In this document: positions 51,177-64,000 of the stretch, in pieces | How positions within the stretch are numbered: the stretch's first letter is position 1 | Layout of the letters: every line of letters begins with the position of its first letter | Assembly: GCF_030406045.1 (NCBI RefSeq) | Contig: NZ_CP128988.1 | Span: 1,213,438 to 1,277,437, forward strand | Length of the DNA: 64,000 nt | Origin: Thiohalobacter sp. IOR34 | GTDB taxonomy: Bacteria > Pseudomonadota > Gammaproteobacteria > Thiohalobacterales > Thiohalobacteraceae | Reading direction: 5' to 3' | Notes under the pieces: generated by a model | Database searches by the model: none | What the model saw: the letters and a program-made list of their open reading frames with translations, nothing else | What the model was told of the DNA's origin: nothing | Position numbers and translations under genes: made by a program

Positions 51177-51401
51177 CTAGGGGATCGAGCGGTCCGCTCC
51201 AGTTTTCCGGTCGTTCCGGTGGATGCGAGCCTGCTGTGTCAGGGGATTTTACAGTCTTCTCGGGGATGCGCCCTTGTGTCAATGTAACGCATTGTTTGAT
51301 AGGTAAAAGAATAATTGGAACGGAATCTGCAGGTCGATAGATCAAGAGCGTATATCAATCTGCGATGTACAAAACAAGCTGCGGCAAGGGAGGGAGCACC
51401 C

Positions 51402-51992
51402 ATGAACATCATCAGATACATGCATACGACTGTGGCCCTGGGCCTGGCGTTGTTGCTGCCGCTGGTGGCGCATGCCTTCCCCATCGCAGCACCGGGAACC
51501 GAGGGTCTGAAGGTGATCGTCGGCAACTCGAACCCGATCATCGCCACCTACCAGGGCAACTCGGCGATGTACAGCAACGACCTGTACCTGGTGCAGGGCG
51601 ACGGCGATGTCTTCATCTTCAACAACCACAGTTCCGCGGTGGGCAGCCAGGTCAACCTCGGCTCCTTCCCGGTGGGTACGGAACTGGTCTTCCGCCTGCA
51701 TGTCAACAACACGGGCTATGACTACTTCACCGGTCCGGCCAGCCGCAATCCGGACCAGCATGTGCATGCCCGGGTGCAGGAGAACTGGCAGCCGAAGGAG
51801 ACCCTGGTGAGTTTCGAGGACCTGTACAACGGTCCCTTCAACTACAACGACCTGAGCTTCTCCTTCACCAATACGGTGACGACACCCCCGCCCCCGCCGA
51901 CGGGTGGGGTGCCTGAACCGGCCGTTGCCAGCCTGTTCCTCATCGGCTTGGCAGCCAGTGGTGTGGCAGCTCGGAGCAAGCGGCGGCGCTGA
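51402..51992 (+). CDS. PEP-CTERM sorting-domain protein (DUF4114-like)
   Basis: A 196-residue exported protein. It has a signal peptide ending LLPLVAHA, then a beta-rich domain with LVSFEDLYNGPFNYNDLSFS, resembling the DUF4114 signature (FEDL...DYNDL). A proline linker follows, then the C-terminal sorting signal VPEPAVASLFLIGLAASGVA and the basic tail RSKRRR. Exosortase (EpsH-type) should cleave at the PEP-like motif and release the protein to the surface or matrix. No exosortase is in the window. The start is ATG 51402 with GGGAGGGAG upstream; the longer frame to 51315 is rejected. Confidence 0.88.
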   Translation: MNIIRYMHTTVALGLALLLPLVAHAFPIAAPGTEGLKVIVGNSNPIIATYQGNSAMYSNDLYLVQGDGDVFIFNNHSSAVGSQVNLGSFPVGTELVFRLHVNNTGYDYFTGPASRNPDQHVHARVQENWQPKETLVSFEDLYNGPFNYNDLSFSFTNTVTTPPPPPTGGVPEPAVASLFLIGLAASGVAARSKRRR

Positions 51993-52145: not shown

Positions 52146-52673
52146 CTACATGGCGTGGCAGGCGATGCACAACCGGCCCGGTTCCGGGCCGGTGGTGAGA
52201 TCGGCGCTGGCGGTGCAGTTGTTGGCGGACGAGGGGCTGCGGTCGGATACCTGGGTGGTGTGGCCAGCGTCGCGTGTCCGGTGACAGGAGATGCAGGTGA
52301 CGGTGCCGTTTTCCAGCCGGATGCGCGGGTCGAGCTTGCCCGGCGCGACATAGACCGCCGGATTGCGGCGGGCATGGCGAGCGTAGGACATGCCCACGGG
52401 ATGATCCAGAGTGCGGTGGCCGCGGATCTGCATGGGGCTGTCCGCATCCTTGATGGTGATCGCCGTGGCGCTGCTGCCGTCATGGCACTGCATGCAGTGC
52501 CGTGCCTGGCTGGCGCGTGAGAGCTGGTCTTGCGCCGCTAGCACGCTGGCCTCGGCCGGTGAGCCGAGCACGAAATCGCGGAACGCATCGGCAAAGCCGC
52601 CGGCCATGGCGTTTCCAACCAGGCTGAACATCATCGCCAAGATGCTGAGATATCGAGCGAAACCGCTATTCAT
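52146..52673 (-). CDS. Small periplasmic triheme c-type cytochrome
   Basis: A 175-residue exported protein: signal peptide to about residue 25 (NAMA|GGF), then three CxxCH motifs: CMQCH (about 60), CISCH (about 132) and CIACH at the very end. A GHRTLDHPVGMSYA segment supplies histidines for axial ligation. The doubled-CxxCH style (CMQCHDGSSA, then HPVG) matches the larger cytochromes upstream. I start at ATG 52673 rather than the TTG two codons earlier. It lies 148 bp after the 24-heme gene on the same strand, the probable last gene of the cluster. Confidence 0.85.
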   Translation of the reverse strand: MNSGFARYLSILAMMFSLVGNAMAGGFADAFRDFVLGSPAEASVLAAQDQLSRASQARHCMQCHDGSSATAITIKDADSPMQIRGHRTLDHPVGMSYARHARRNPAVYVAPGKLDPRIRLENGTVTCISCHRTRDAGHTTQVSDRSPSSANNCTASADLTTGPEPGRLCIACHAM

Positions 52674-52821
52674 GCCCAAGTTTCCTGTGCTCGCGGCGGT
52701 TTCGGGCCGGGCAGCGTGTGGACGCTGCCCCCGTCGGGACCGCTGATGAAAGCAGGGGGATCTGCCCTGTTATCGGGAACCCGGGGGGAATCCTTGAGCC
52801 GGTAGAGGAAGCGGGGCGGGC

Positions 52822-55800
52822 TCAGCGGGCCAGGGAATGCTTGATATGGCCCTTCTTGGCATGGAAGTACTTGTATCGGTAGAGGGAATCGGGGCCGTGA
52901 CAATCGGCGCACAGGAAGTCGCGGGTATCCGACAGGCGCAGGAAGCTGCTGGTGACATCGCCTTCCTCGTTGCGGCCGCTGCCTGGATGGTCGCTGCCGG
53001 CTCGCCAGCGATGGGGGTCGTGGCAGGACGGACAGCTGATGTTGCCGATGCTGGCCTGCTTGCCGTTCTCGTCAAAGACCGGCACTGCGCCGTGGCTGCC
53101 GGGTCGCAGGCCGGCGCGGAGGCTTTCCGCCCAGACCAGGATGCGGGTTGGATGCTGGCTTTCCACCGGGATCTTGGCCGAGGCCGATGCCCCCGCGGCA
53201 TGGCAGCTGCGGCACAGTCGTTCCACCGGGTTGCTGCCCGTGGCACCGGGGACGCGTGCCCAGAGACGCAATTCGCTGCCCGCGTTGTGCACGCCATGGC
53301 ATTGGCCGCAGAGGCCGGATTCGGACACGGTCTGATGGCGGGCGTTGACCGCAGTCGGAGCGGTTACCGCCAGATCATGGTCGGTACCAAGGATGGCCGC
53401 CTGCTGGCGGTGGCAGTCGGCACAGAGATCGCCCTTCTCGGCGCTGATGCGCAGAAAACTGGTGCGTGCATCCCCTTCGGTCTTCATGTCGTCGGTCTGG
53501 CGCGGCCTGTCTGGATTCCACTGGTGCGGATTGTGGCAGCTGGCGCAGTCCAGATGACCTTTCTCGTCATGGCTGCCCCTGCTGCTGAACAGCGGCAGTC
53601 GACGTGGCCGGTAGGGGGGAGAAGGCTTGATGCCCAGCGGATGGCTGTGTTCGCCCGTGGTGTGCTCCTTGGCGGCCCCGTCAGCACGGTGGCAGTCGGT
53701 GCAGAGGCGCTGTACGGCAGTGCTGCCGGGTCCCATATCACGAGCCCAGAGAAAGGGGCCGCGCGCCTGATGGGGCCGGTGGCAGAGGCTGCAGCTCCCC
53801 CGCCCGCTATTGTCCGGCAGTGAGAGCCGGGCTTGAGCATGGCGGCTGCGTGCGACCACGCTCTTCTGCAGATGGCAGTTGGTGCACAGTGCACTGCGAC
53901 CGCCGTCGGCAATGCGCAGGAAGCTGCTGTCGGCATCTCCTTCGACCTTCACCTCCGGCTTGCCGCGGGTCGACCAGCGGTGCGGATCGTGACAGGTGGC
54001 ACAACCGACCCGTCCCTCGTGGGTGCTGCGCCTGCCGGCAAGATCGAACAGAGGCAGGGGGGTGGGCGGAAGGATGCCCAGACGCTGAGGCAGACGGCTC
54101 AGCCAGCGGTCCAGCGTGGCCTTGATACCCAGCCGGCCGATGGGTACGTCGAGCGGGTGGTTGTGGCCGTCGATCGCTTTCTTGGCGGCGGGGCCGTCCT
54201 GGCGATGGCAGCTCAGGCAGGGCGCGGCGGTCGGCCGGATACCTGCCGGCAGTTGCCGCGCCCACATCAGCGGGCCGAGGCCGTTGTGTACCCGGTGGCA
54301 GTTGCCGCAGAGACCGGCCTGTTTTGCCGTCTTGCCGCCCGCCGTGCGCGCCTTGGGTGCGGAGCGCGCCAGATCGTGCTCACTGCCGGCAATGGCCCGC
54401 TTGCTGATATGACATCGACGGCAGAGTTTCGAGTTACTGTCGTTGGCGATGCGCAGGAAGCTGGTTCGTTCATTGCCTTCTTCCTTGCTGTTGCCGCGTC
54501 GATCGGCGTGAGCTGGATCCCACTGGTGAGGATCGTGGCAGCTTGCGCAACTCAGCATGCCCTTGCCATCGCCCTGGTGTTTGACACCCGTGGCGGAGAA
54601 CGCCGGCAGGCTGACCGCCTGGCCCAGCCGCGCGATAGGCGCGCCGACCGGATGGCTGTGACGACCGGTCCGGTGTTTGCGGGCCATACCGTCCGCCTGG
54701 TGGCAACTCAGGCACAGCGTGGCCATCGGGTCGAGGCCGGGTGGGCGATCACGCGCCCACATCTTCGGTCCTTTGCCCTGGTGCGGCCTGTGACAGGCAG
54801 CACAGGTACCGCTCGTGCTGTCCCGCTTGCCGGGCTCGAGCTCGGCCACATCATGTTTGCCACCGATCACGCCTCGCTGCTGGCGATGGCAGCTCAGGCA
54901 CAGACGGGAAGCGGCATTGCTTGCCGTTAGCAGGCCGGACGGGGACTTGGCGTCGTGCGGCCGATGGCAGGTCTGGCATATCAGCTCCCCGCGGGGACCC
55001 CTCCTGGCACCCAAGCTGATCAGACGGGGAGGGATGGAGGCCTTGCCTGGCTGCAGATTGACCGGATGGGTGCGGGCTTCGGCGGCTGCCTGCAGCGAGT
55101 GGGTGTAACGGTCGGCATGGCAAGTGCCGCATAGCTCGGAACGCGGATTGGAAACGACCAGCAGCTTCTCCTCCGGTGCATCATGTGCGGTATGGCAGCT
55201 CTGACAGGTGATCCTGCCATCGTTGCTCAGTTTGGCATGTGTAGTTCGAAACAGAGCGGGTGGATTCTCCAGCGGCTTGTCGATTGGATGGCTGCCACTG
55301 GCGGGGCCATGGGTCTTCTCCTCGTGGCAGGATTGGCAGAGTGCCCCGTCGATACTGCGGACGCGCATGAAGATGGGCGAGTCGGTTGTCTCCCAGTCGA
55401 CCCCGTGCGCCGAATGGCAGCTGCCACAATAGATGTTTCCATCGTCATTGAGGGGGAACAGATTCTTGCCATTCTTTACCGGAAGGCTGATGCGTTCCGA
55501 GGGCTTGACCCCGACCGGATGCTGATGCCTTCCCTTCTTCCATAGGAAACGTGAGTCGAGCACGAAGCCATCATGGCAGGAAAAGCACATACGTGGGGTG
55601 CTGACCACGTCTTGTCGGCCGGTTTCGAGAACCGGCTTTGGTTCGTAAGGGATCAGGGTCTGCACGTCTTCACGCTTGAATGCCTTGATCCACATGACAT
55701 GACAGATGGCGCATTCACGTTGTGCGCCAATATCTCGGGCAGCAAATGTCTGGTTGTTGAAGATCAGGGCAAGTGCCAGGAGCAGCAGCAGAAGCACCGC

Positions 55801-55833
55801 CTGGGTGTTGTGAGGGGTGCGTGTGGAAATCAT
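52822..55833 (-). CDS. 24-heme c-type cytochrome with four tetraheme modules
   Basis: A 1003-residue exported protein; signal peptide to about residue 31. I count 24 CxxCH motifs: eight in the first 316 residues, then four modules of about 165 residues each with four hemes, starting at Cys344, Cys509, Cys681 and Cys842. Each module runs CxxCHRPHxGxGPxxWAR, CLSCHxxDG, a HxHPxG segment, CxxCHDPHxW, a TSFLRI segment and LCxxCH; the first three end with an xHDLA-like segment. No membrane anchor or peptidase domain is seen. It should be a long electron wire in the periplasm or at the surface. The ATG overlaps the stop of the NHL gene (ATGA). No exact named family is recognised. Confidence 0.92.
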   Translation of the reverse strand: MISTRTPHNTQAVLLLLLLALALIFNNQTFAARDIGAQRECAICHVMWIKAFKREDVQTLIPYEPKPVLETGRQDVVSTPRMCFSCHDGFVLDSRFLWKKGRHQHPVGVKPSERISLPVKNGKNLFPLNDDGNIYCGSCHSAHGVDWETTDSPIFMRVRSIDGALCQSCHEEKTHGPASGSHPIDKPLENPPALFRTTHAKLSNDGRITCQSCHTAHDAPEEKLLVVSNPRSELCGTCHADRYTHSLQAAAEARTHPVNLQPGKASIPPRLISLGARRGPRGELICQTCHRPHDAKSPSGLLTASNAASRLCLSCHRQQRGVIGGKHDVAELEPGKRDSTSGTCAACHRPHQGKGPKMWARDRPPGLDPMATLCLSCHQADGMARKHRTGRHSHPVGAPIARLGQAVSLPAFSATGVKHQGDGKGMLSCASCHDPHQWDPAHADRRGNSKEEGNERTSFLRIANDSNSKLCRRCHISKRAIAGSEHDLARSAPKARTAGGKTAKQAGLCGNCHRVHNGLGPLMWARQLPAGIRPTAAPCLSCHRQDGPAAKKAIDGHNHPLDVPIGRLGIKATLDRWLSRLPQRLGILPPTPLPLFDLAGRRSTHEGRVGCATCHDPHRWSTRGKPEVKVEGDADSSFLRIADGGRSALCTNCHLQKSVVARSRHAQARLSLPDNSGRGSCSLCHRPHQARGPFLWARDMGPGSTAVQRLCTDCHRADGAAKEHTTGEHSHPLGIKPSPPYRPRRLPLFSSRGSHDEKGHLDCASCHNPHQWNPDRPRQTDDMKTEGDARTSFLRISAEKGDLCADCHRQQAAILGTDHDLAVTAPTAVNARHQTVSESGLCGQCHGVHNAGSELRLWARVPGATGSNPVERLCRSCHAAGASASAKIPVESQHPTRILVWAESLRAGLRPGSHGAVPVFDENGKQASIGNISCPSCHDPHRWRAGSDHPGSGRNEEGDVTSSFLRLSDTRDFLCADCHGPDSLYRYKYFHAKKGHIKHSLAR

Positions 55834-56822
55834 GGTGGAGGCAGATCCAGTTGAAAGACAGAGACCCGGTTGGCGAGCATCTCACAGACATATAACAGTC
55901 CATTATTGCCCAGGGCGAGGCCACTCGGTGTGGTGAAGCCACGCGAGGGGTCATCCGTTAGGAGCTGGAACCGGAAACGACTGTCGCTACTGAAGACCTG
56001 AATTGCATTGAGGTAGCTGTCGGAAACCAGTACCACACCACTGCTTGTAGCAGCCACCCCTTTGGGGCGGTAGAAGTTGCCGGGCCGTACCCCCCATTCT
56101 CCGATCTGCACCAGGAATCGTCCATCCTCGGAAAACTTTTGTACACGTGTGTTGAGGACATCGACGACATATATCGAGCCGGTGCCATCGAGGGAAAGAG
56201 TGGCCGGGTAGCGGAATTGGCCTTCGTCGACGCCTTCACCTCCCCATTGGCTGAGATAGCCTCCATCGCGGGTGTAGACCATAAGGCTGTGATTATTGTT
56301 GCCGGTAATGAAAAGCCGGCTGCCATCCGCAGAAACAGCGACATCGATCGGGTGGATGGAATACTTCCCGGACCGAAGCGGGATATCCTGGATCAATTTG
56401 CCATTCAGGGTAAATCCCAACACCCGACTGTTGTTGCGATCGGCGACGAACAGGATGCCGTCTGCAGAAATCCCGATGCCTACGGGTCCGTTCATGCCGT
56501 TGAACTGCTTGCCTTTCCGGCCTATTTCATAGAGCCATTTTCCTGTGCTGGAGAAGACTGCAATCCTGTTGTTGCCGCCGTCGACGACATAGGCCCGGCC
56601 GCTGCTGTCCAGGACCACATCGCTGGGCAGGCTGAGCGGACTGCCCGGTGGTCCTTGCAGGTCATACAGGTGCTTGGCCACCAGGGTATGTGGCTCACTG
56701 GCAAGGCATGGCGTGATTGCGATGAAAGAGATCAGGACAAACAGGAGGGCTACAGCCAGCCACTCCTGCATGGTCTGGGTGGAGGATCTGCCATGGCGAG
56801 ACCTGTCAGCGTGTCCGATCAT
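55830..56822 (-). CDS. NHL-repeat beta-propeller protein, exported
   Basis: About 330 residues. A hydrophobic signal (WLAVALLFVLISFIAITPCL, cleavage near LAS) is followed by about six NHL/YWTD-like repeats, for example PSDVVLDSSGRAYVVDGGNN, GPVGIGISADGILFVADRNN, YPATLSLDGTGSIYVVDVLN and PSGLALGNNGLLYVCEMLAN. NHL propellers are scaffolds for protein binding. The start is uncertain: ATG 56822 (used here, overlapping the upstream cytochrome by 17 bp), ATG 56861 or ATG 56771. It is coupled to the 24-heme gene, suggesting that the two proteins assemble together. Confidence 0.82.
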   Translation of the reverse strand: MIGHADRSRHGRSSTQTMQEWLAVALLFVLISFIAITPCLASEPHTLVAKHLYDLQGPPGSPLSLPSDVVLDSSGRAYVVDGGNNRIAVFSSTGKWLYEIGRKGKQFNGMNGPVGIGISADGILFVADRNNSRVLGFTLNGKLIQDIPLRSGKYSIHPIDVAVSADGSRLFITGNNNHSLMVYTRDGGYLSQWGGEGVDEGQFRYPATLSLDGTGSIYVVDVLNTRVQKFSEDGRFLVQIGEWGVRPGNFYRPKGVAATSSGVVLVSDSYLNAIQVFSSDSRFRFQLLTDDPSRGFTTPSGLALGNNGLLYVCEMLANRVSVFQLDLPPP

Positions 56823-57858
56823 CGGTCTTTTCCCACCAGGGTTTCTGACGGTTCCTGTCATCAGGGCTTGCCAGGACCTTGCTGCTGGAATGGCCAGTCA
56901 GGTTTTCCAGCGGGGGCAGGGATTTTTTCGATTTAAGGAGATTTGGGATATAGAATTTTTTGTATTTCTCGACCAGGCCGATGATATTGAGATTGGTCAG
57001 GTTTTCCTGCCTCTGTTCGGTGAATCCGAGTGCAGAAAAGTCGAGATAGGGTTCCTCGCGATTGTGGCATCTGCTGCAGAAACGGCCCTTGGGTGTGACG
57101 AGTTTGTGAAATCGCTCCTTGACCGCTTCACGGTCGCGATCACTCAAATGCTTGTAAACACTGTAGAATTCGCGTGCCTCGGGTCTATCTGGTGTGATCT
57201 CCAGCAGTTGACCGTCACTGTATGCGACGATCTTCGAGTAATAATCGTCGGTCTCGATCAGGTCGCCGGTTTGCTGGTTGATATCAGTTCCGAAATGGGG
57301 GCCATCGACCTCGATTCCAGAGTAGTTCAACCATCCGAAGGACAACGATGACTCCGGTATGAGTCGAGGATCGTTGTGGCATGTCATGCAACCAATGAAC
57401 TGGGTATGCATGTTCAGGATGGTGCGAATCATTCGCTCCTTGGAATGTGGGAAATCACCATGGCAGAGGAGGCAGACTGCCTTTTGCCCGCGGGTCGGGT
57501 CTATTTCTGCAGAAATATTGTGAAAGTGCCTGATGCGTTCATGCTTGCGTTGTGCCTCGATCGCACTCATCAGGGTTGGTTCTTCTTTCTCAGTCCTTGG
57601 CTTGGCATAGGTCTCATAGAGTGTCGCCAGCAACTCCAATGCTAGGCTGCCGATGATCGCGACCAGTATGGTCGTGGTCAGAAAGGCGATCACCGGATGG
57701 TCGCGCCTGATGCCGGATATGCTGAATGGGTCATGCGTGAAACCACCTGGCAATCGTGCCTTGTGATCGATAAGCACGAGTATCGCTATTCCCAGGAAGA
57801 AGAAGAGCAGTACCGTTATTACAATGAGAACGGCAATTGGTGATTCTGACTGAGGCAT
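56806..57858 (-). CDS. Membrane-anchored triheme c-type cytochrome
   Basis: A 350-residue protein with two membrane segments (about 8-30 and 56-78), then a periplasmic domain with three CxxCH motifs: CLLCH (129), CMTCH (157) and CSRCH (about 264). The first two heme motifs are about 28 residues apart; the third is distant, followed by a charged tail (KPWWEKTDDRTR). It could pass electrons from the cytochrome b to periplasmic cytochromes. It does not match NapC/NirT (no four-heme pattern). I do not recognise a specific family. Confidence 0.85.
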   Translation of the reverse strand: MPQSESPIAVLIVITVLLFFFLGIAILVLIDHKARLPGGFTHDPFSISGIRRDHPVIAFLTTTILVAIIGSLALELLATLYETYAKPRTEKEEPTLMSAIEAQRKHERIRHFHNISAEIDPTRGQKAVCLLCHGDFPHSKERMIRTILNMHTQFIGCMTCHNDPRLIPESSLSFGWLNYSGIEVDGPHFGTDINQQTGDLIETDDYYSKIVAYSDGQLLEITPDRPEAREFYSVYKHLSDRDREAVKERFHKLVTPKGRFCSRCHNREEPYLDFSALGFTEQRQENLTNLNIIGLVEKYKKFYIPNLLKSKKSLPPLENLTGHSSSKVLASPDDRNRQKPWWEKTDDRTR

Positions 57859-58012: not shown

Positions 58013-58957
58013 CTAGTCGGCTGGTTCAGGTACCGGTGCTGGCTGCTCATCGTCTTCGTTGATGAGTTCACGGCTTTCCATCATCTCTCGCAGGTAAGCG
58101 CGTTCTTCCGGGATCTCGACCAGATTGCGCAGATATTCGAGGAAATGCTCTTCCATCTGGTGTTCACGGGTTATTCTTCCGGTGAGGAATGTCCACTGCA
58201 TGGGGAAACGTCCAGGCGCAAGGTGCACGTTGTACCAGTGCCAGAAAGCAATGACCAGCAGAGCGAGAAGTGCCTCATGTGGATGCGATAGACGCATCAA
58301 CTCCTGAAAATGTGATGATATCGATGGCGGCAGTACGCTGGCCCAGAACTCTGGGAACAGGAACGAGGAACCTGATATAACCATCACCATGTTGCCGAAA
58401 GCGGCAGCGAAATAATGGATCTTCTGCTTGTACATGAACTTGTCCATTTCCGGACGCTGATCGCGTCTGCCGCTGAAATAGAGCAGATCGTCCTTGAAAT
58501 CGCGGATATCCTTGAACAGCGGGATGATGGTGCGTTGCAGGTCGAACCTGTTGCGCATGATTTGTAATGCGGGGCCAAGTGTAATGGTGAATACATGGTA
58601 GATCATCGAGAAGATCATCACCGAGGCCAGGGTGCGGTGAATGATGCGGGTGATCTCGACGCCGCCTAGCATGGTATTGAGAGGTTCGGCCCAGAATGCA
58701 TCACTGAAGTGAATCGGCAGTCCGGTGAAAGCAAGTGCCAGGAAGGTGACGAAGGTGAGCATGTGCTGTAGGCGGATATGGATGGAATAACGTGGCAAGT
58801 CGCCAATCGGATTCGAAACCACGTTCTTGTAGAGGAGGACGCGGTCGTCGGGCAAGGAATCGATCAGTGACATGATCTCGTCGCGGTCCTTGTCAGTGAC
58901 CTTGTTTTGCTGCATGCAACGCTCGATGACCTTTTGTGCTTCGCTAGACAGTTTCAT
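58013..58957 (-). CDS. Cytochrome b of the FdnI/HydC type
   Basis: A 314-residue protein. A 50-residue soluble start precedes four hydrophobic segments (about 62-85, 107-130, 181-205, 226-246). Candidate heme ligands: His60/His65 in HIRLQHML, His107 (IIHRTL), His121 (IYHVFTI), His181, His227 and His240 (AFWHWYNVH). The ARYSIHxRLQHxL pattern and the C-terminal HLAPGRFPMQWTFLTGRITR resemble the gamma subunit of formate dehydrogenase and hydrogenase cytochrome b. It should exchange electrons with the quinone pool. It follows an 8-heme cytochrome by 42 bp. Confidence 0.88.
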   Translation of the reverse strand: MKLSSEAQKVIERCMQQNKVTDKDRDEIMSLIDSLPDDRVLLYKNVVSNPIGDLPRYSIHIRLQHMLTFVTFLALAFTGLPIHFSDAFWAEPLNTMLGGVEITRIIHRTLASVMIFSMIYHVFTITLGPALQIMRNRFDLQRTIIPLFKDIRDFKDDLLYFSGRRDQRPEMDKFMYKQKIHYFAAAFGNMVMVISGSSFLFPEFWASVLPPSISSHFQELMRLSHPHEALLALLVIAFWHWYNVHLAPGRFPMQWTFLTGRITREHQMEEHFLEYLRNLVEIPEERAYLREMMESRELINEDDEQPAPVPEPAD

Positions 58958-58999: not shown

Positions 59000-60121
59000 T
59001 CATACGATGCGATCCCGATCTCTGGGCGATTTGCGCCACCAGGATGAACCGTGGCGAATCTTCCAGATGACTCCGTCGCGACGGCGACCGATGGTTTCGA
59101 ACAGGGAAATGCCCACCAAACCTATTATCACTACGTCGCCAATGACGTTATATATGAGTTCCGCATAATAGCGGAATGGATTGTCTTGCGGATGGCTGGT
59201 TGGGTGTGGATCCAGCCTGACATAATTTTCATCCGCATAGATATGGCACTTCCGGCAGGCTTCTACGCGGTTGCTCTCGTGCATCGGTGACTTCGGATCG
59301 CGTGAAGGGAGAATTTCGTGAACGCTTCTGTAGTAATTGACTTCGCTGGCATGGCAGTCAAGGCAATTCGGCGTCTTGCTGAAGCCATATCCGGTTAGCT
59401 TTCCGTGGAAGCTTTCATTGTAGGATTCGACAGCGAAAGCGAACTTGCGGCCGAGCTCTCGATCCTCCTCCTTGGCGAGTTCCATACGGCGCTTTATGAA
59501 TTCCGGGTCGCCGTGGCAGGAGGAGCATAATGCTACGATTTGCTCGGATGACCTGCGTACCTCCCTGATTCGCCGGCTCGTATGATTGTACCAGCGGTTG
59601 GCGAATTCCCTGTCTTCATGACATACGACACAGCGGTCGACGATCCTCTTTGGCGGGGCGGATTCAGCGGGGTTGTACAGGGGGTTGGTGTGACAGGTGA
59701 TGCAGTAGGGCTTGTCTGTATCTGCGCCGTGTGCAAGCTTGTCACGGCCGTGAACACTGCTGCGGTAGGTATTGTAGATCGGCTTGTGCGAGAATGGCTT
59801 TCCGGTGGCCGGATTGTTTATTGAATGGCATTCGATATTGCAGCTGACCCCTTTCTTCACCGGTCTGTGCGGCAGTTCCTTGATGTAGTTGTGGCAGTCG
59901 CGACAGGGTACGTTCCTGTGGACGGTCTTCGAGAAGATGCCTGGTACTATGAAATAGGAACGGAACACGCCTTCTTCGGTCATTCTTCCCATCATGGGAT
60001 ATTTGTGGCACATGAGACAGGATTCGTCATCGGTGAAGCTCATTGCCTGTGCTGCAAACAATGCCGACATGACGAACATGAGCCTGCATACCATGCTGAG
60101 GACAGAATGTCTGTTATTCAT
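59000..60121 (-). CDS. Membrane-anchored octaheme-type c-type cytochrome
   Basis: A 373-residue exported protein: signal peptide (cleavage near AAQAM), seven CxxCH motifs (CLMCH 35, CRDCH 73, CITCH 140, CVVCH 164, CSSCH 199, CLDCH 253, CRKCH 289) and one CxxxCH (CNIECH, 94). A C-terminal membrane helix lies at about 322-343 with a basic cytoplasmic tail. A multiheme domain anchored by a C-terminal helix and encoded next to an FdnI-like cytochrome b is the layout of Geobacter CbcA/CbcB quinol oxidoreductase. That functional link is inference from architecture. Confidence 0.9.
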   Translation of the reverse strand: MNNRHSVLSMVCRLMFVMSALFAAQAMSFTDDESCLMCHKYPMMGRMTEEGVFRSYFIVPGIFSKTVHRNVPCRDCHNYIKELPHRPVKKGVSCNIECHSINNPATGKPFSHKPIYNTYRSSVHGRDKLAHGADTDKPYCITCHTNPLYNPAESAPPKRIVDRCVVCHEDREFANRWYNHTSRRIREVRRSSEQIVALCSSCHGDPEFIKRRMELAKEEDRELGRKFAFAVESYNESFHGKLTGYGFSKTPNCLDCHASEVNYYRSVHEILPSRDPKSPMHESNRVEACRKCHIYADENYVRLDPHPTSHPQDNPFRYYAELIYNVIGDVVIIGLVGISLFETIGRRRDGVIWKIRHGSSWWRKSPRDRDRIV

Positions 60122-60165: not shown

Positions 60166-61248
60166 CTATTTGTCATGGCAGATCGTGCAAATCTTCGTGC
60201 TGCGCAAGCGGTCCTTGTTCGTGGCACCCACGCCGGCAGCGCCGGCAACCACCCCTTCCTCATGCGGGTTGTGGCAGGTTGCGCAAAATATCTTTCCATT
60301 CGTCGGATCAAGAGGCATGATCACGCCTCTCTCCGCGGAAATTTCCACTAATCTCTCATGCATGGCTCGATCAGGCCTGATGAGGTGATTTGGTGGCTTG
60401 GCGTCCGAGAAGAGACGGAATTTCCCGCCAGGATGGGGAGTCCAAGGGTGGCAACCGAGGCACATCTGGCGAAGGTCGGACTTTATATGGAAGTCGACAT
60501 CTGAGATGCCTCTGGCTGAACCCAGTGCCTCGATATTTTCGTGGCACAAACGGCAACTCGGCTTCCGAATGTTACCCTCGTCATCAATCTGTTCGTGTGG
60601 GTTCAATCGCACATGGCGTTCCTGGTCATGACACAAATAGCACACGTCACTACGACTTTTCCTGATCCCTCCACGGACGAAATCCGGGTTGGTCTTCTTT
60701 TCGCTGATGCGTGATGGAAGACACTGGGAGCGCATGTCATGGCATGTTGTGCAGACGATGTTCTGTGCACGCATCGAATTGCGGTAATCACGTGGCATGC
60801 GCCGCAGCATGTCCGTCCTTGGTCGAATATTGGATGTGTGAAGCAGCTTGTTGCTGGCGAGTCGCGAATGGCAGGTGTTGCAGATTTCCTCCCGTGCGCC
60901 CTTGCGCAAGGAAGACAAATCCGCTGCAGGCTGCTCGAGGTGACAGATATCGCAGCTGTCCGGGTTCCAGTGAGGATTCGGTATCTTTTCATCGAGAAGC
61001 CGGTCTCCGACGATCTGCAGCAGTGTGTATTTCGCAGCGATGGCATCGTCATCTCCGATGTCAGCCTGGATATCCATCGCCATTACTCCCATGGATGCAG
61101 TCAGTATGAACAATCGTGACAACAGGCGTAGTATCAATGTACAGATGAACCCGCTTGCAGGAATGTCTTCTATCTCGACTGTCGGGTGAAACGTATTGCT
61201 GTCTGATACAAGCAAGCGCCCCTTCAACGCAGGGGGAGGCATGCCCAT
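60166..61248 (-). CDS. Octaheme c-type cytochrome
   Basis: About 360 residues from ATG 61248, with eight CxxCH motifs in order: CDICH, CNTCH, CTTCH, CYLCH, CRLCH, CLGCH, CATCH and CTICH. A hydrophobic export segment (FICTLILRLLSRLFILTASM) lies about 35 residues in from the chosen start, so the true start may be a downstream alternative codon. The start is therefore uncertain. The end (CATCHNPHEEG...CTICHDK) repeats the CxxCHNPH style of the other cluster proteins. It begins 8 bp after the 12-heme gene and ends 44 bp before the next cytochrome. Confidence 0.85.
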   Translation of the reverse strand: MGMPPPALKGRLLVSDSNTFHPTVEIEDIPASGFICTLILRLLSRLFILTASMGVMAMDIQADIGDDDAIAAKYTLLQIVGDRLLDEKIPNPHWNPDSCDICHLEQPAADLSSLRKGAREEICNTCHSRLASNKLLHTSNIRPRTDMLRRMPRDYRNSMRAQNIVCTTCHDMRSQCLPSRISEKKTNPDFVRGGIRKSRSDVCYLCHDQERHVRLNPHEQIDDEGNIRKPSCRLCHENIEALGSARGISDVDFHIKSDLRQMCLGCHPWTPHPGGKFRLFSDAKPPNHLIRPDRAMHERLVEISAERGVIMPLDPTNGKIFCATCHNPHEEGVVAGAAGVGATNKDRLRSTKICTICHDK

Positions 61249-61255
61249 ATAACAT

Positions 61256-62971
61256 CTACATGCCACCGCCACCGCCCATTCCACGCGGATATGAGAAATT
61301 CCGATGTTGCCGGTTATGGCACCGCAGACTGCAGCTGCCAGCAAAACGCCCATTGTCCGTGAATGCCAGTTCTCCCCAGCGGTTCGGGCTTACCACGGAT
61401 GTATCAAAATTGATCAGATGGGTATTGTTCGTGCTGTTGCCCTGGGTGTCGCTGATGCCGTGTGGATCATGACATATGTTGCACGGCGCCTTCTGGCCGA
61501 CGATATGCCGGCGATGCTCGCTGAAGCTTTCATTGCCAAGGATGCTGTTCCTGTCGTGGCAGCCGTAACAAAGCGCATAGTTGGCCGGGCTTTCACGGGT
61601 ATAGTCAAGAGTGACGTATTGTCTGATGAGTATTGGTTCATAGTTCGAGCCGTGCGGACCATTGGCGCCGGATCCTCCAGCCAGGGTCGAGCTGTCACTA
61701 TTGTGACAGTCTGTACATTCGATCTGGCTCGTGCTGTTCAATGGCGAGATCAGGCTCGGCACGTCAGGGTTGCGTCCAGGCCCGGCAACAGGGTGAAATG
61801 AGGGGTTGGTGGTGGCGAATTCGAGCCGTGTGTTGATCTGCGATATCTGCCTCGGCGTCGCCGGTGCAGGCTGTCCCGGGCTGTCTGAATGACAACGAAA
61901 GCAGAGCTGGTGTGTACTGCTGATGGTTTCAAGTCCTGATCCGTTGATATCGATACCTCGGACCAATGCAAGCGGTCCAAGCGTCGCAATGCTATCGCTA
62001 CGTGCAGCATGTGGATTGTGACAGTCCTGGCATTCCGCGTGTCGATTGCTGACGATGGTGCCTTCTCCTGCATCATGAACGCCGGTATAGGAGTAAATTG
62101 GGTGTGCAGAATACTTGCTGAACTGCGACATGATATCTTTACTGGCGACATTGCCGTTATGGCAGGCAGAGCAGTTGTCCTCTTCGGCCTGGTGCTTGAG
62201 TAGCAAGGTGCTGCTACCTGCCGAGTGTGGTCGATGGCAGTTCAGGCAGGCATTGTCACTGACTGTTTGCCAATCGGTGTCGGACCAGGGGTCCGGGGGG
62301 ATGCCATTCCAGTCCGCATTCGAAAGGCTGTGTGACGCCTGCAGCCAGCCGTGCTTGATATGACAGGTGGTACAAAGTCTGGATGCGCGGTTGGGCATGA
62401 CCAGGAACTTGCCAAAGCTGTCATTGTGCGGATCATGACAGCTCGTGCACTGCAATTGTCCGCTTTTGTCGAGGCGCACCGTACCTGTCAGTTGGCCGGG
62501 GTCGACGAGCTCGCCTTGCTGTGCTGCGAGTGACGCGGAGTAGACGAATGAAACAGGGTGGTCGTCAGAGAGATCCGTGCCAAGTCTGGTTGCGCCAGGC
62601 GGCATGGTGGTCACCCCTCCCGACATGCTGATCTCATTGCTCTGGCTGATTATCTTGCCGAGGGCAATGGTTCCGTCATGGCAACTCAGGCAAAGAATCG
62701 AGGCGCCAGTCGGCTGGCCCGGTTGGGCGACAGCAGTCGAACTGGAGTAGGGTATGTACAATGCCGCCGATTGTTCACGGTTCCAGAGTGGAGCTGCAGA
62801 GGAGGCATTGTGCGGGGTATGACAGAAGATGCAGATTCTGGATTCCTGGTCCGATTTGATGGTCCCGGGTCCAGAAACTGAAAGGTTATGTTTGGTACTG
62901 GCGATGCCTGCAACTGCCGGCATGACCGCAAGCATCTGAAAGAGCAGGGAGAACAGCCAGCGCACCCTCAT
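61256..62971 (-). CDS. Dodecaheme-type c-type cytochrome
   Basis: A 571-residue exported protein; signal peptide to about residue 21 (AVMPAVAG). Eleven CxxCH motifs (first CIFCH at 47, last CNICH at 497) and one CxxxCH (CSLRCH at 547). Many are of the doubled-CxxCH type with CHxPH (CIFCHTPHN, CTSCHDPHN, CLNCHRPHS, CQDCHNPHA, CNICHDPHG). The tail is a Gly/Met run. Ser/Asn-rich, relatively acidic surface segments suggest an outer-membrane or extracellular place. The ATG overlaps the stop of the NHL lipoprotein (ATGA). Confidence 0.92.
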   Translation of the reverse strand: MRVRWLFSLLFQMLAVMPAVAGIASTKHNLSVSGPGTIKSDQESRICIFCHTPHNASSAAPLWNREQSAALYIPYSSSTAVAQPGQPTGASILCLSCHDGTIALGKIISQSNEISMSGGVTTMPPGATRLGTDLSDDHPVSFVYSASLAAQQGELVDPGQLTGTVRLDKSGQLQCTSCHDPHNDSFGKFLVMPNRASRLCTTCHIKHGWLQASHSLSNADWNGIPPDPWSDTDWQTVSDNACLNCHRPHSAGSSTLLLKHQAEEDNCSACHNGNVASKDIMSQFSKYSAHPIYSYTGVHDAGEGTIVSNRHAECQDCHNPHAARSDSIATLGPLALVRGIDINGSGLETISSTHQLCFRCHSDSPGQPAPATPRQISQINTRLEFATTNPSFHPVAGPGRNPDVPSLISPLNSTSQIECTDCHNSDSSTLAGGSGANGPHGSNYEPILIRQYVTLDYTRESPANYALCYGCHDRNSILGNESFSEHRRHIVGQKAPCNICHDPHGISDTQGNSTNNTHLINFDTSVVSPNRWGELAFTDNGRFAGSCSLRCHNRQHRNFSYPRGMGGGGGM

Positions 62972-64000
62972 GACTGCCCCCCCGAATAACGGAACATCTG
63001 TACGCGCTGATTATGTGAGTCAGTGATGTAGATGGTGTCGTCCGAGCTGATAAATATCCCGGTAGGCAGCCAGAATTGCCCAGGAGCTTGTCCCTGATCG
63101 CCGATGAACAGGAGAAGAGCACCCTGCTCATCGAAGATCTGGAATGCATGAAACATGGCATCGACGACATAGATATGGCCAGCGCTATCGGTTGCCAGGC
63201 CCTTGGGTCGTGAAAACGCGCCCGCCACGTCACCTGCCCTGCCAAAACTGCCGAGATAGCTTCCCTGCAGGTCGAATGTCTGGATCCGGTAATTCAGTGA
63301 ATCCGTCACCCGGACCAGGCCATGCGCATCGATCGAGATGTGTGTCGGGTAATTGAATTCCGAAGCACCGGTGCCGCGCCTGCCGAAGCTTCCAAGATAG
63401 CGGCCATTGGTGGAAAAGATCCTCACGCAATGCGAGGCTGCATCCACGATATATAGGTTGTCTGACAGAGGGTCGATTGCAACCCCGGTTGGTTGTTCCA
63501 GCTCAGACTCGAGTTGCATCCTCTTCAGGACCTTTTCCCCTTTGGCAAGAGAAAACACTGCACCTAGGGCAGAGTCCGTCACATAGACGGTGCCATCTTC
63601 TGCGATCGCGATGCCTACGGGTGATGGAAGTGGCTGCCGCTTTTTACGCTGGAGAAATGTATACTGACCTGTGGCAAGGTCAAAACGATGTATGCCGCGT
63701 GCACCGGGATCGGTAACAAGAAGCAGATTGCCGTGATCAGCGCTGGCAACCGCCATGGGGCGAATCAGCCTGTTCTCGGACACACCTCCCAGCCAGTCGC
63801 CAAGATGTTGCCAGAAAGACTTTTTGATACCGAGATCTGCAGGTGTTCTGAAGCTGCCAAGATAACTGATGTAGGCCGGTGCCGGAGCTGGTGGCCAGGC
63901 GATTTCCTGCTCCGAGCCGATGGTCGTTGTCTGGATGCTGCAGGCGGCAATAAACAGCGCTGCTGCTGCAGCTACCAGGCGGAGAAGAAACGGTTTCTGG
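62968..64000 (-). CDS. NHL-repeat lipoprotein (N-terminus cut by window edge)
   Basis: The frame is open to the right edge; 344 codons are visible. Near the edge it reads PFLLRLVAAAAALFIAACS, a lipoprotein signal with lipobox IAAC, so only a few residues including the start are missing. After a Pro/Ala linker (WPPAPAPAY) come about six NHL repeats, such as PVGIAIAEDGTVYVTDSALG, PTGVAIDPLSDNLYIVDAAS, YPTHISIDAHGLVRVTDSLN and PKGLATDSAGHIYVVDAMFH. A GTG at 63783 is inside the protein and is not the true start. It is coupled to the 12-heme gene and may anchor it to the outer membrane. Confidence 0.9.
   Translation of the reverse strand, partial: QKPFLLRLVAAAAALFIAACSIQTTTIGSEQEIAWPPAPAPAYISYLGSFRTPADLGIKKSFWQHLGDWLGGVSENRLIRPMAVASADHGNLLLVTDPGARGIHRFDLATGQYTFLQRKKRQPLPSPVGIAIAEDGTVYVTDSALGAVFSLAKGEKVLKRMQLESELEQPTGVAIDPLSDNLYIVDAASHCVRIFSTNGRYLGSFGRRGTGASEFNYPTHISIDAHGLVRVTDSLNYRIQTFDLQGSYLGSFGRAGDVAGAFSRPKGLATDSAGHIYVVDAMFHAFQIFDEQGALLLFIGDQGQAPGQFWLPTGIFISSDDTIYITDSHNQRVQMFRYSGGQS

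Follow-up and report, generated by a model that had tools for sequence, protein, structure and literature searches.

What is a cytochrome with 24 hemes in one chain built from, and what might such a chain connect? The question is raised by a 64,000-nucleotide stretch of the Thiohalobacter sp. IOR34 genome (the window; contig NZ_CP128988.1, positions 1,213,438 to 1,277,437), in which a complete gene on the minus strand encodes a c-type cytochrome with 24 CxxCH motifs and no cysteine outside them. We report that the tetraheme module of this protein is homologous from end to end with OmcE-type nanowire subunits, and that the length of the chain appears to be set by the gene and not by polymerization. 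On balance we favor reading the protein as a concatemer, OmcE-type subunits joined covalently in one chain, and as a probable wire of fixed length leading from the inner membrane to an outer-membrane conduit. Positions are those of the window unless a locus is named, and PMC numbers denote open-access texts, cited for those of their passages that bear on these proteins.

Modular architecture of the 24-heme protein

The initial annotation placed the gene at 52822-54861, a span that covers residues 325-1003 only. The full open reading frame (ORF) can be divided as follows, all on the minus strand.

52822..55833: 24-heme c-type cytochrome, 1003 amino acids (P0001), complete gene
55741..55833: probable Sec signal peptide, residues 1-31 (ends ...NNQTFAA), judged from the sequence by eye
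55690..55713: heme 1 site, C41AICHVMW48, with Trp replacing the distal His of the other 'a' hemes
55207..55713: T0, degenerate tetraheme, residues 41-209, hemes 1-4, from heme spacing and shuffle scores
54979..55206: D1, diheme, residues 210-285, hemes 5-6, from heme spacing (best Paired_CXXCH_1 stretch in this region, residues 206-241)
54805..54978: D2, diheme, residues 286-343, hemes 7-8, from heme spacing
54310..54804: T1, tetraheme, residues 344-508, hemes 9-12, from repeat alignment
54376..54378: H486, candidate linking His (HDL motif) after heme 12, register from OmcE alignments
53794..54309: T2, tetraheme, residues 509-680, hemes 13-16, from repeat alignment
53311..53793: T3, tetraheme, residues 681-841, hemes 17-20, from repeat alignment
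52825..53310: T4, tetraheme, residues 842-1003, hemes 21-24, from repeat alignment
52861..52896: C-terminal cap, residues 980-991 (...RYKYFH), with H991 the candidate ligand of heme 24

The first cysteines of the four C-terminal units lie exactly where they had been placed, at 344, 509, 681 and 842 (spacings 165, 172 and 161), and gapped unit alignments and shuffle scores support the proposal that a tetraheme module was duplicated in tandem to give these units. The four tetrahemes are 36-48% identical over the six possible pairs, and the scores of these pairs stand 7.5-21.8 standard deviations above CxxCH-preserving shuffles (300 per pair). An ungapped self-shift of the protein gives only weak peaks, at 165 and 337, because the unit lengths differ; a gapped alignment is therefore required to see the period. 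The shared motif order ascribed to all four units holds in units 1-3 with substitutions (RVH and HPLD in unit 2), while unit 4 diverges further, with CGQCHGVHNAGSELRLWAR, CRSCHAAGAS, QHPTRI and SFLRL in the corresponding places. The N-terminal eight hemes, described at first as older, degenerate versions of the same unit, resolve by spacing into one tetraheme-like unit and two dihemes. Similarity of these blocks to T1-T4 is weaker (z 3.1-6.3 against CxxCH-keeping shuffles), and in several pairs the best of 300 shuffles comes near or above the real score.

The tetraheme module is homologous to OmcE-type subunits

Read from its leading histidine, the module has the order HDL - CxxCHxPH..LW - CxSCH - HP - CxSCHxxH - FLR - LCxxCH. 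A profile of 52 of 126 module references (A3, from which mostly T4 modules and near copies were left out) was compared by hhalign with an alignment of OmcE-like proteins (A4; 18 of 19 matches, 11 of them in loci with a relative of the 24-heme gene and 7 in other genomes). The two align end to end over 145 columns with a probability of 99.7 and an E-value of 2.4e-26, and the whole-protein profile meets the same 18 proteins at T2 (probability 99.3, E 7.2e-21). Control alignments of 15 hand-picked rows each were made for the 7-heme and 8-heme families encoded in the same gene row (A5 and A6); the former reached a probability of 20.7 against the module profile, and the latter 97.5 (E 6.5e-12) over a local stretch of only 48 columns. 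The 4-heme gene farthest upstream in the cluster encodes a full-length homologue of OmcE (1.4e-21).

A profile search of the PDB with the 52 modules gave OmcE as its best match (7tfs, 3.4e-10, summed over three pieces), followed by 9yuq (8e-10), another multiheme cytochrome with 16 chains in the entry; the next match was at 4e-5. An AlphaFold2 model of the T1-T2 pair, built from 105 rows, has a predicted local distance difference test score (pLDDT) of 89.6 and a predicted template modeling score (pTM) of 0.85. When this model was compared by VIA-align with 34 chains, a set beyond which other families could match too, 7tfs was the sole match at Z of at least 2 (Z 5.9, modest by the tool's own note; root-mean-square deviation 3.0, 136 aligned of 202, 26% identity). 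The matched range, residues 485-655 of the 24-heme protein against OmcE 30-231, has the same His-first register as the profile alignment.

Heme ligands and the ends of the chain

Relatives used here are 26 homologues with 23-24 hemes and a wider set of 73 ORFs closed at both ends, which remain from 124 ORFs with E<=1e-40 (89 non-redundant) after the 16 cut at an end are left out of the counts. Across the 26 homologues exactly 23 histidines outside CxxCH motifs pass a conservation threshold of 85% of rows, their actual values being 96-100%, and in chain order they fall one to each heme, heme 1 excepted. At position +7 of heme 1, where the other 'a' hemes have His, stands a Trp in 26/26 of these proteins and in 68/73 of the wider set. 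At the other end H991 of the RYKYFH motif is conserved in 26/26, and a protein's own C-terminal His is found near the last heme in 69/73. Both features recur in the 32 of these rows that come from whole-genome profile searches and not from the contig scan described below; 28 of them keep the Trp and 29 the cap His.

The filaments of OmcE and OmcS contain a heme whose ligand is a His from the neighboring subunit (PMC9473688, PMC12954529). Among the OmcE-like proteins 18 of 19 end two residues past the last CxxCH, the nineteenth running off its contig, and their last heme is thus without a downstream His of its own. The equivalent of the OmcE joint His in the 24-heme protein would lie one module further along the chain, at H486, H665 (in RHAQ here) and H819 (HDL), each of which is kept in 26/26 homologues. 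As far as the sequence can tell, a last heme completed by a neighboring subunit's His is not a trait of this protein; both ends of the chain look closed. Because no His is conserved ahead of heme 1 and the C-terminal site is probably filled, polymerization in the manner of OmcE would not be expected, and nor would filaments formed by that mechanism.

Relatives and the variation of heme number

A contig scan for relatives found 42 distinct loci, with search patterns that included the heme 1 and C-cap regions and are thereby biased toward conserved ends. Of their main ORFs, 23 have 24 hemes, two have 23, eleven have 18 and two have 28, with one each at 38 and 37; contig ends truncate the remaining two (to 19 and 14 hemes). 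All 24 hemes of the 24-heme relatives align with those of the window protein, whose near relatives mostly have 24 hemes, as do 4/4 loci labeled Thiobacillus. The 73 closed ORFs extend this range to between 12 and 49 hemes: 12 hemes in 5 ORFs, 14 in 1, 15 in 1, 16 in 6, 18 in 14, 20 in 4, 22 in 5, 23 in 3, 24 in 28, 28 in 2, 29 in 1, and one ORF each with 37, 38 and 49. These counts include L105 (both pieces), L059, L106, L122 and L042, which look broken or distant. Across these 73 the variation is in the middle of the chain, and the two ends hardly change. Variable length, which the initial annotation raised as a possibility between strains, is found among relatives; variation between strains was not seen, with one genome per species.

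The expected growth by four hemes describes the tetraheme duplications, but dihemes have been inserted too, and in the 38-heme member (L034) a 10-heme block is duplicated in tandem, the copies being 76% identical. The 18-heme forms lack one diheme and one tetraheme relative to the 24-heme forms, and growth by fours alone was dropped as an account of length. An ORF of 2093 amino acids at L131 (G621:C33:12800-20800) carries 49 hemes, with three blocks of one diheme and two tetrahemes (10 hemes each) at 54-62% identity and an extra CxxCH inside one module. The block copies of L034 and L131 are too divergent for an assembly artifact to be likely.

A tree of 38 rows (12 with 18 hemes, 26 with 23-24) was built from 720 shared columns by a quick method; it has several long branches and omits L024, L031, L034, L042, L048 and L050. 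The twelve 18-heme rows are not one clade (approximately unbiased test, p 0.003), and the eight that lie outside the Desulfobulbia/delta group were likewise rejected as a clade (p 0.017). The diheme and tetraheme block was therefore gained or lost at least twice, and the tree fits either direction. In eight 24-heme proteins, corresponding modules of different species share a mean identity of 50-54%, against 35-44% for modules at different positions; the duplications are therefore old, and the modules are not being homogenized. Some lineages, among them those of L034 and L131, extended the chain at a later time.

Within the class, whole-genome profile searches at E<=0.001 gave matches in 49 of the 369 genomes; 13 reach E<=1e-40, and the other matches are weak. 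In the phylum to which G376 belongs (the genome with the Desulfocapsa-labeled locus L045), 37/395 genomes match at E<=1e-10. No match was found in any of ten genomes of the same family (G001-G010), and loci occur in other classes and phyla; the distribution is therefore patchy, for which loss and transfer are candidate explanations.

Several further observations concern individual loci. Two genomes each carry two long genes of this kind: the genome of L023 has L095 and L098, with 24 and 24 hemes and about 11 kb apart from start to start, and that of L045 has L097 and L100, with 18 and 22 hemes. The 37-heme ORF at L042:7224-14801, of about 2526 amino acids, has a 778-residue tail past its last heme and is missing both end caps. 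Another paired-CXXCH ORF, of 681 amino acids, lies elsewhere in the window genome (G000:C1:2358436-2358726). Alignment A2 omits L005, L043, L024, L027, L042, L044 and L048.

Gene neighborhood

The 24-heme gene stands at the end of a conserved row of closely spaced genes on the same strand. Neighbors were counted by tblastn (E<=1e-5) in those loci with enough upstream sequence to be testable; membrane helices were judged by eye.

52146..52679, minus: 3-heme c-type cytochrome, 177 amino acids, downstream; similar gene in 4/42 loci
55830..56861, minus: NHLc, NHL beta-propeller, 343 amino acids, just upstream; 36/39 testable loci
56806..57858, minus: c350, 3-heme cytochrome with apparent membrane helices; 38/38 testable loci (weakest match L042, 62 bits)
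58013..58957, minus: cytochrome b561/formate-dehydrogenase-gamma-like membrane protein; 35/36 testable loci
59000..60121, minus: 7-heme cytochrome with an apparent C-terminal membrane helix; 36/36 testable loci (weakest match L042, 89 bits)
60166..61353, minus: 8-heme cytochrome, start codon probably over-extended; 24/35 testable loci
61256..62971, minus: 11-heme cytochrome, UetJ-like by heme number and neighbors only
62968..64000, minus: NHLb, NHL protein, continuing past the window edge (L003:6406-7566)
L003:7452-9350, beyond the window: 632-residue barrel-like protein, a putative outer-membrane barrel judged by eye
L003:9819-10955, beyond the window: NHLa
L003:11026-11730, beyond the window: OmcE-like tetraheme

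Pfam gave no match to the 632-residue protein at E<=0.01, and NCBIfam gave one below the cut-off; a signal peptide is not evident at the start of its ORF, and the true start may lie further upstream. In ten loci (L009, L010, L011, L015, L017, L023, L027, L038, L039 and L041) a diverged 6-heme - cytochrome b - c350 module, about 27-37% identical to that of the window, is found near the relative of the 24-heme gene, in most cases next to a closely similar copy of the module found in the window. A gene for a PEP-CTERM protein (51315-51992, plus strand) faces the cytochrome genes of the window. The genome has two RuBisCO large subunits and one DsrA over its cut-off, which suggests an autotrophic (CO2-fixing) sulfur oxidizer, provided that Dsr works in the oxidative direction.

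A proposed role and its alternatives

If the protein is a concatemer of OmcE-type subunits, the chain would run from T0 through two diheme spacers to T1-T4, with a His ahead of each of T1-T4 as the prospective ligand for the final heme of the preceding unit, and the filament joint of OmcE would be made inside one chain. Heme 24 would be served by its own C-terminal His, and heme 1 would have lost its distal His to Trp. The quinone pool would exchange electrons with cytochrome b, c350 and the 7-heme protein, which would pass them to the 24-heme chain and on to the outer-membrane parts; most likely, the chain bridges the periplasm and carries electrons between the quinone pool and a conduit in the outer membrane. 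The linear heme wire of the initial annotation is retained here as a predicted stacked chain. OmcE rises by 34 Å per subunit (PMC12954529). At that rise the six tetraheme-equivalents of the window protein would extend for about 20 nm if the modules stack, and members with 12, 18, 38 and 49 hemes for about 10, 15, 32 and 42 nm. A length of about 20 nm is near the usual width of the periplasm, and 32-42 nm is beyond it. The computations establish the modules, their homology with OmcE, the conserved residues at the ends and the neighboring genes; from these the pairing of ligands, the stacking, the length, the periplasmic location, the direction and the function are predicted.

Several results pull against this reading. 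The best of the three pieces in the 7tfs profile match has by itself an E-value of 0.003, and the structural Z score is modest, as noted. A Foldseek search of the PDB with the T1-T2 model returned nothing at E<=0.001 (best E 2.4, P450s), and the full-length AlphaFold2 model from 26 homologues was poor (pLDDT 50.7, pTM 0.40) and was not used in the analysis. A module hidden Markov model scores the neighboring 4-heme gene at 23.6 bits, where CxxCH-keeping shuffles reach 24.8; a single-sequence comparison is thus no better than shuffles, and comparison of profile with profile was needed. The pairing of ligands with hemes is that suggested by spacing. The barrel-like protein was recognized in 2/42 loci, many of which are short. 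Finally, the 38- and 49-heme members, at an estimated 32 and 42 nm, exceed the usual periplasm, and such long members may therefore lie otherwise.

Beyond the concatemer itself, we offer as a tentative idea, more doubtful than probable, that the family is a ruler set by the gene, with two constant end ports and a changeable number of OmcE-type modules, its reach tuned to the gap. The ports might then be heme 1, with its Trp cap, and the last heme, capped by RYKYFH. Equally tentatively, the span between them could be an insulated heme wire of 12 to 49 hemes, or some 10 to 42 nm, polymerized by duplication and not by assembly.

A range of 12-49 hemes might also be seen if heme number stood for charge capacity, the protein being a periplasmic store of electrons and not a point-to-point wire. 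There is precedent in GSU1996, GSU0592 and GSU2210, monomeric periplasmic proteins that have been called 'nanowires of hemes' and are regarded as most likely capacitors (PMC10138318). We regard this as unlikely for the window protein: ends that stay nearly constant while the middle varies suit a connector better, as does the association of the gene with a membrane redox module, of which the 7-heme cytochrome (36/36) and c350 (38/38) are present in every testable locus.

We give a similarly low probability to an extracellular location, in which the protein would be secreted and would extend the conduit outward or join, at one end, OmcE-like filaments formed by the product of the cluster's 4-heme gene. 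The modules are homologous to the subunit of an extracellular filament, an OmcE-like monomer is encoded in the same cluster, and the lengths estimated from heme counts for some members exceed the periplasm, all of which would fit. A simple pattern search found no lipobox in the 24-heme protein, however, and the lack of a conserved His before heme 1 together with a self-capped last heme would leave no docking site of the OmcE type. That the Trp-capped heme 1, alone in having no conserved distal His, is an open catalytic heme (for nitrite, sulfur species or metal) fed by the 23 others is improbable, since residue 47 beside it is variable (M in 21/26) and the family matches over the cut-off are all to cytochrome domains and none to an enzyme.

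Under the favored reading, that of a covalent concatemer of fixed length, the protein would be a naturally occurring single-chain counterpart of polymer cytochrome nanowires, which have no set length; its ends would be defined, and its family would provide a ready-made series of lengths. Such a series would make it possible to measure how conduction, heme capacity and reach depend on the number of modules, and would put a shared origin of polymer wires and long single-chain multihemes to the test. It would also supply a concrete candidate for how electrons cross the periplasm in lineages with these gene rows.

Comparison with known systems

Published proteins equal or exceed this number of hemes, among them 24- and 38-heme proteins of Geoalkalibacter ferrihydriticus (PMC12016550), proteins with up to 86 heme motifs in Desulfuromonas acetexigens (PMC12133095) and PCC3 with up to 63 (PMC5566968); they are set beside the window protein by heme number and not by sequence, and heme number alone is therefore not new. 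Single-chain wires of triheme domains (GSU1996) and the proposed periplasm-spanning PCC3 are likewise known already (PMC10138318, PMC5566968, PMC10734462). In the open-access literature searched, we recognized no single-chain concatemer of OmcE modules with capped ends and a changing module number.

The gene row can be compared with three described systems. The PCC3 cytochrome of Gallionellaceae has 21, 24 or 27 hemes, with long linear models, and is proposed to span the periplasm (PMC10734462); compared by that description, its counts suggest steps of three, unlike those of the window family. The inner-membrane protein of PCC3 carries two WX3HX13H motifs and SGXXG (PMC5566968), whereas the window cytochrome b has one HX13H and neither WX3HX13H nor SGXXG. 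Membership of PCC3 was not adopted, the inner-membrane signature being absent from the row's cytochrome b; PCC3 further comprises a porin with one extracellular and one periplasmic many-heme cytochrome, for which a barrel-like protein (judged by eye) and several cytochromes would be the candidates here. The Uet (undecaheme electron transfer) cluster occurs in Tenderiales and Gallionella, with the composition given in PMC10734462. The upstream part of the row, which extends beyond the window, resembles it in having adjacent 11-heme, tetraheme, putative barrel and NHL genes, the barrel being assigned by eye and the 11-heme cytochrome likened to UetJ by heme number and neighbors; the Uet cluster as described there has no 24-heme protein. 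Uet also includes three triheme cytochromes and a peptidyl-prolyl isomerase. The row also resembles Geobacter CbcBA and Cbc5, by gene content only. The Cbc gene sets contain a 7-heme cytochrome and a cytochrome b, as the row does. The role of CbcBA in the Geobacter inner-membrane module is treated in PMC10553843.

For the 24-heme protein itself the nearest systems are two. The Geobacter periplasmic 'nanowires of hemes' GSU1996 (12 hemes), GSU0592 (12) and GSU2210 (27) (PMC10138318) are set apart from it here by description and not by sequence; GSU1996 shares the arrangement of tandem heme modules in a single polypeptide, but its modules are triheme domains, each with one His-Met heme, whereas those of the window protein are tetrahemes and dihemes in which 23 of 24 hemes have a conserved His candidate. 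OmcE (7tfs) and the OmcE-like tetrahemes share with it the motif order, profile homology from end to end and a structural match. The window protein differs from them in having several modules in one chain, a last heme with a candidate His of its own, and ends that appear to lack the filament joint.

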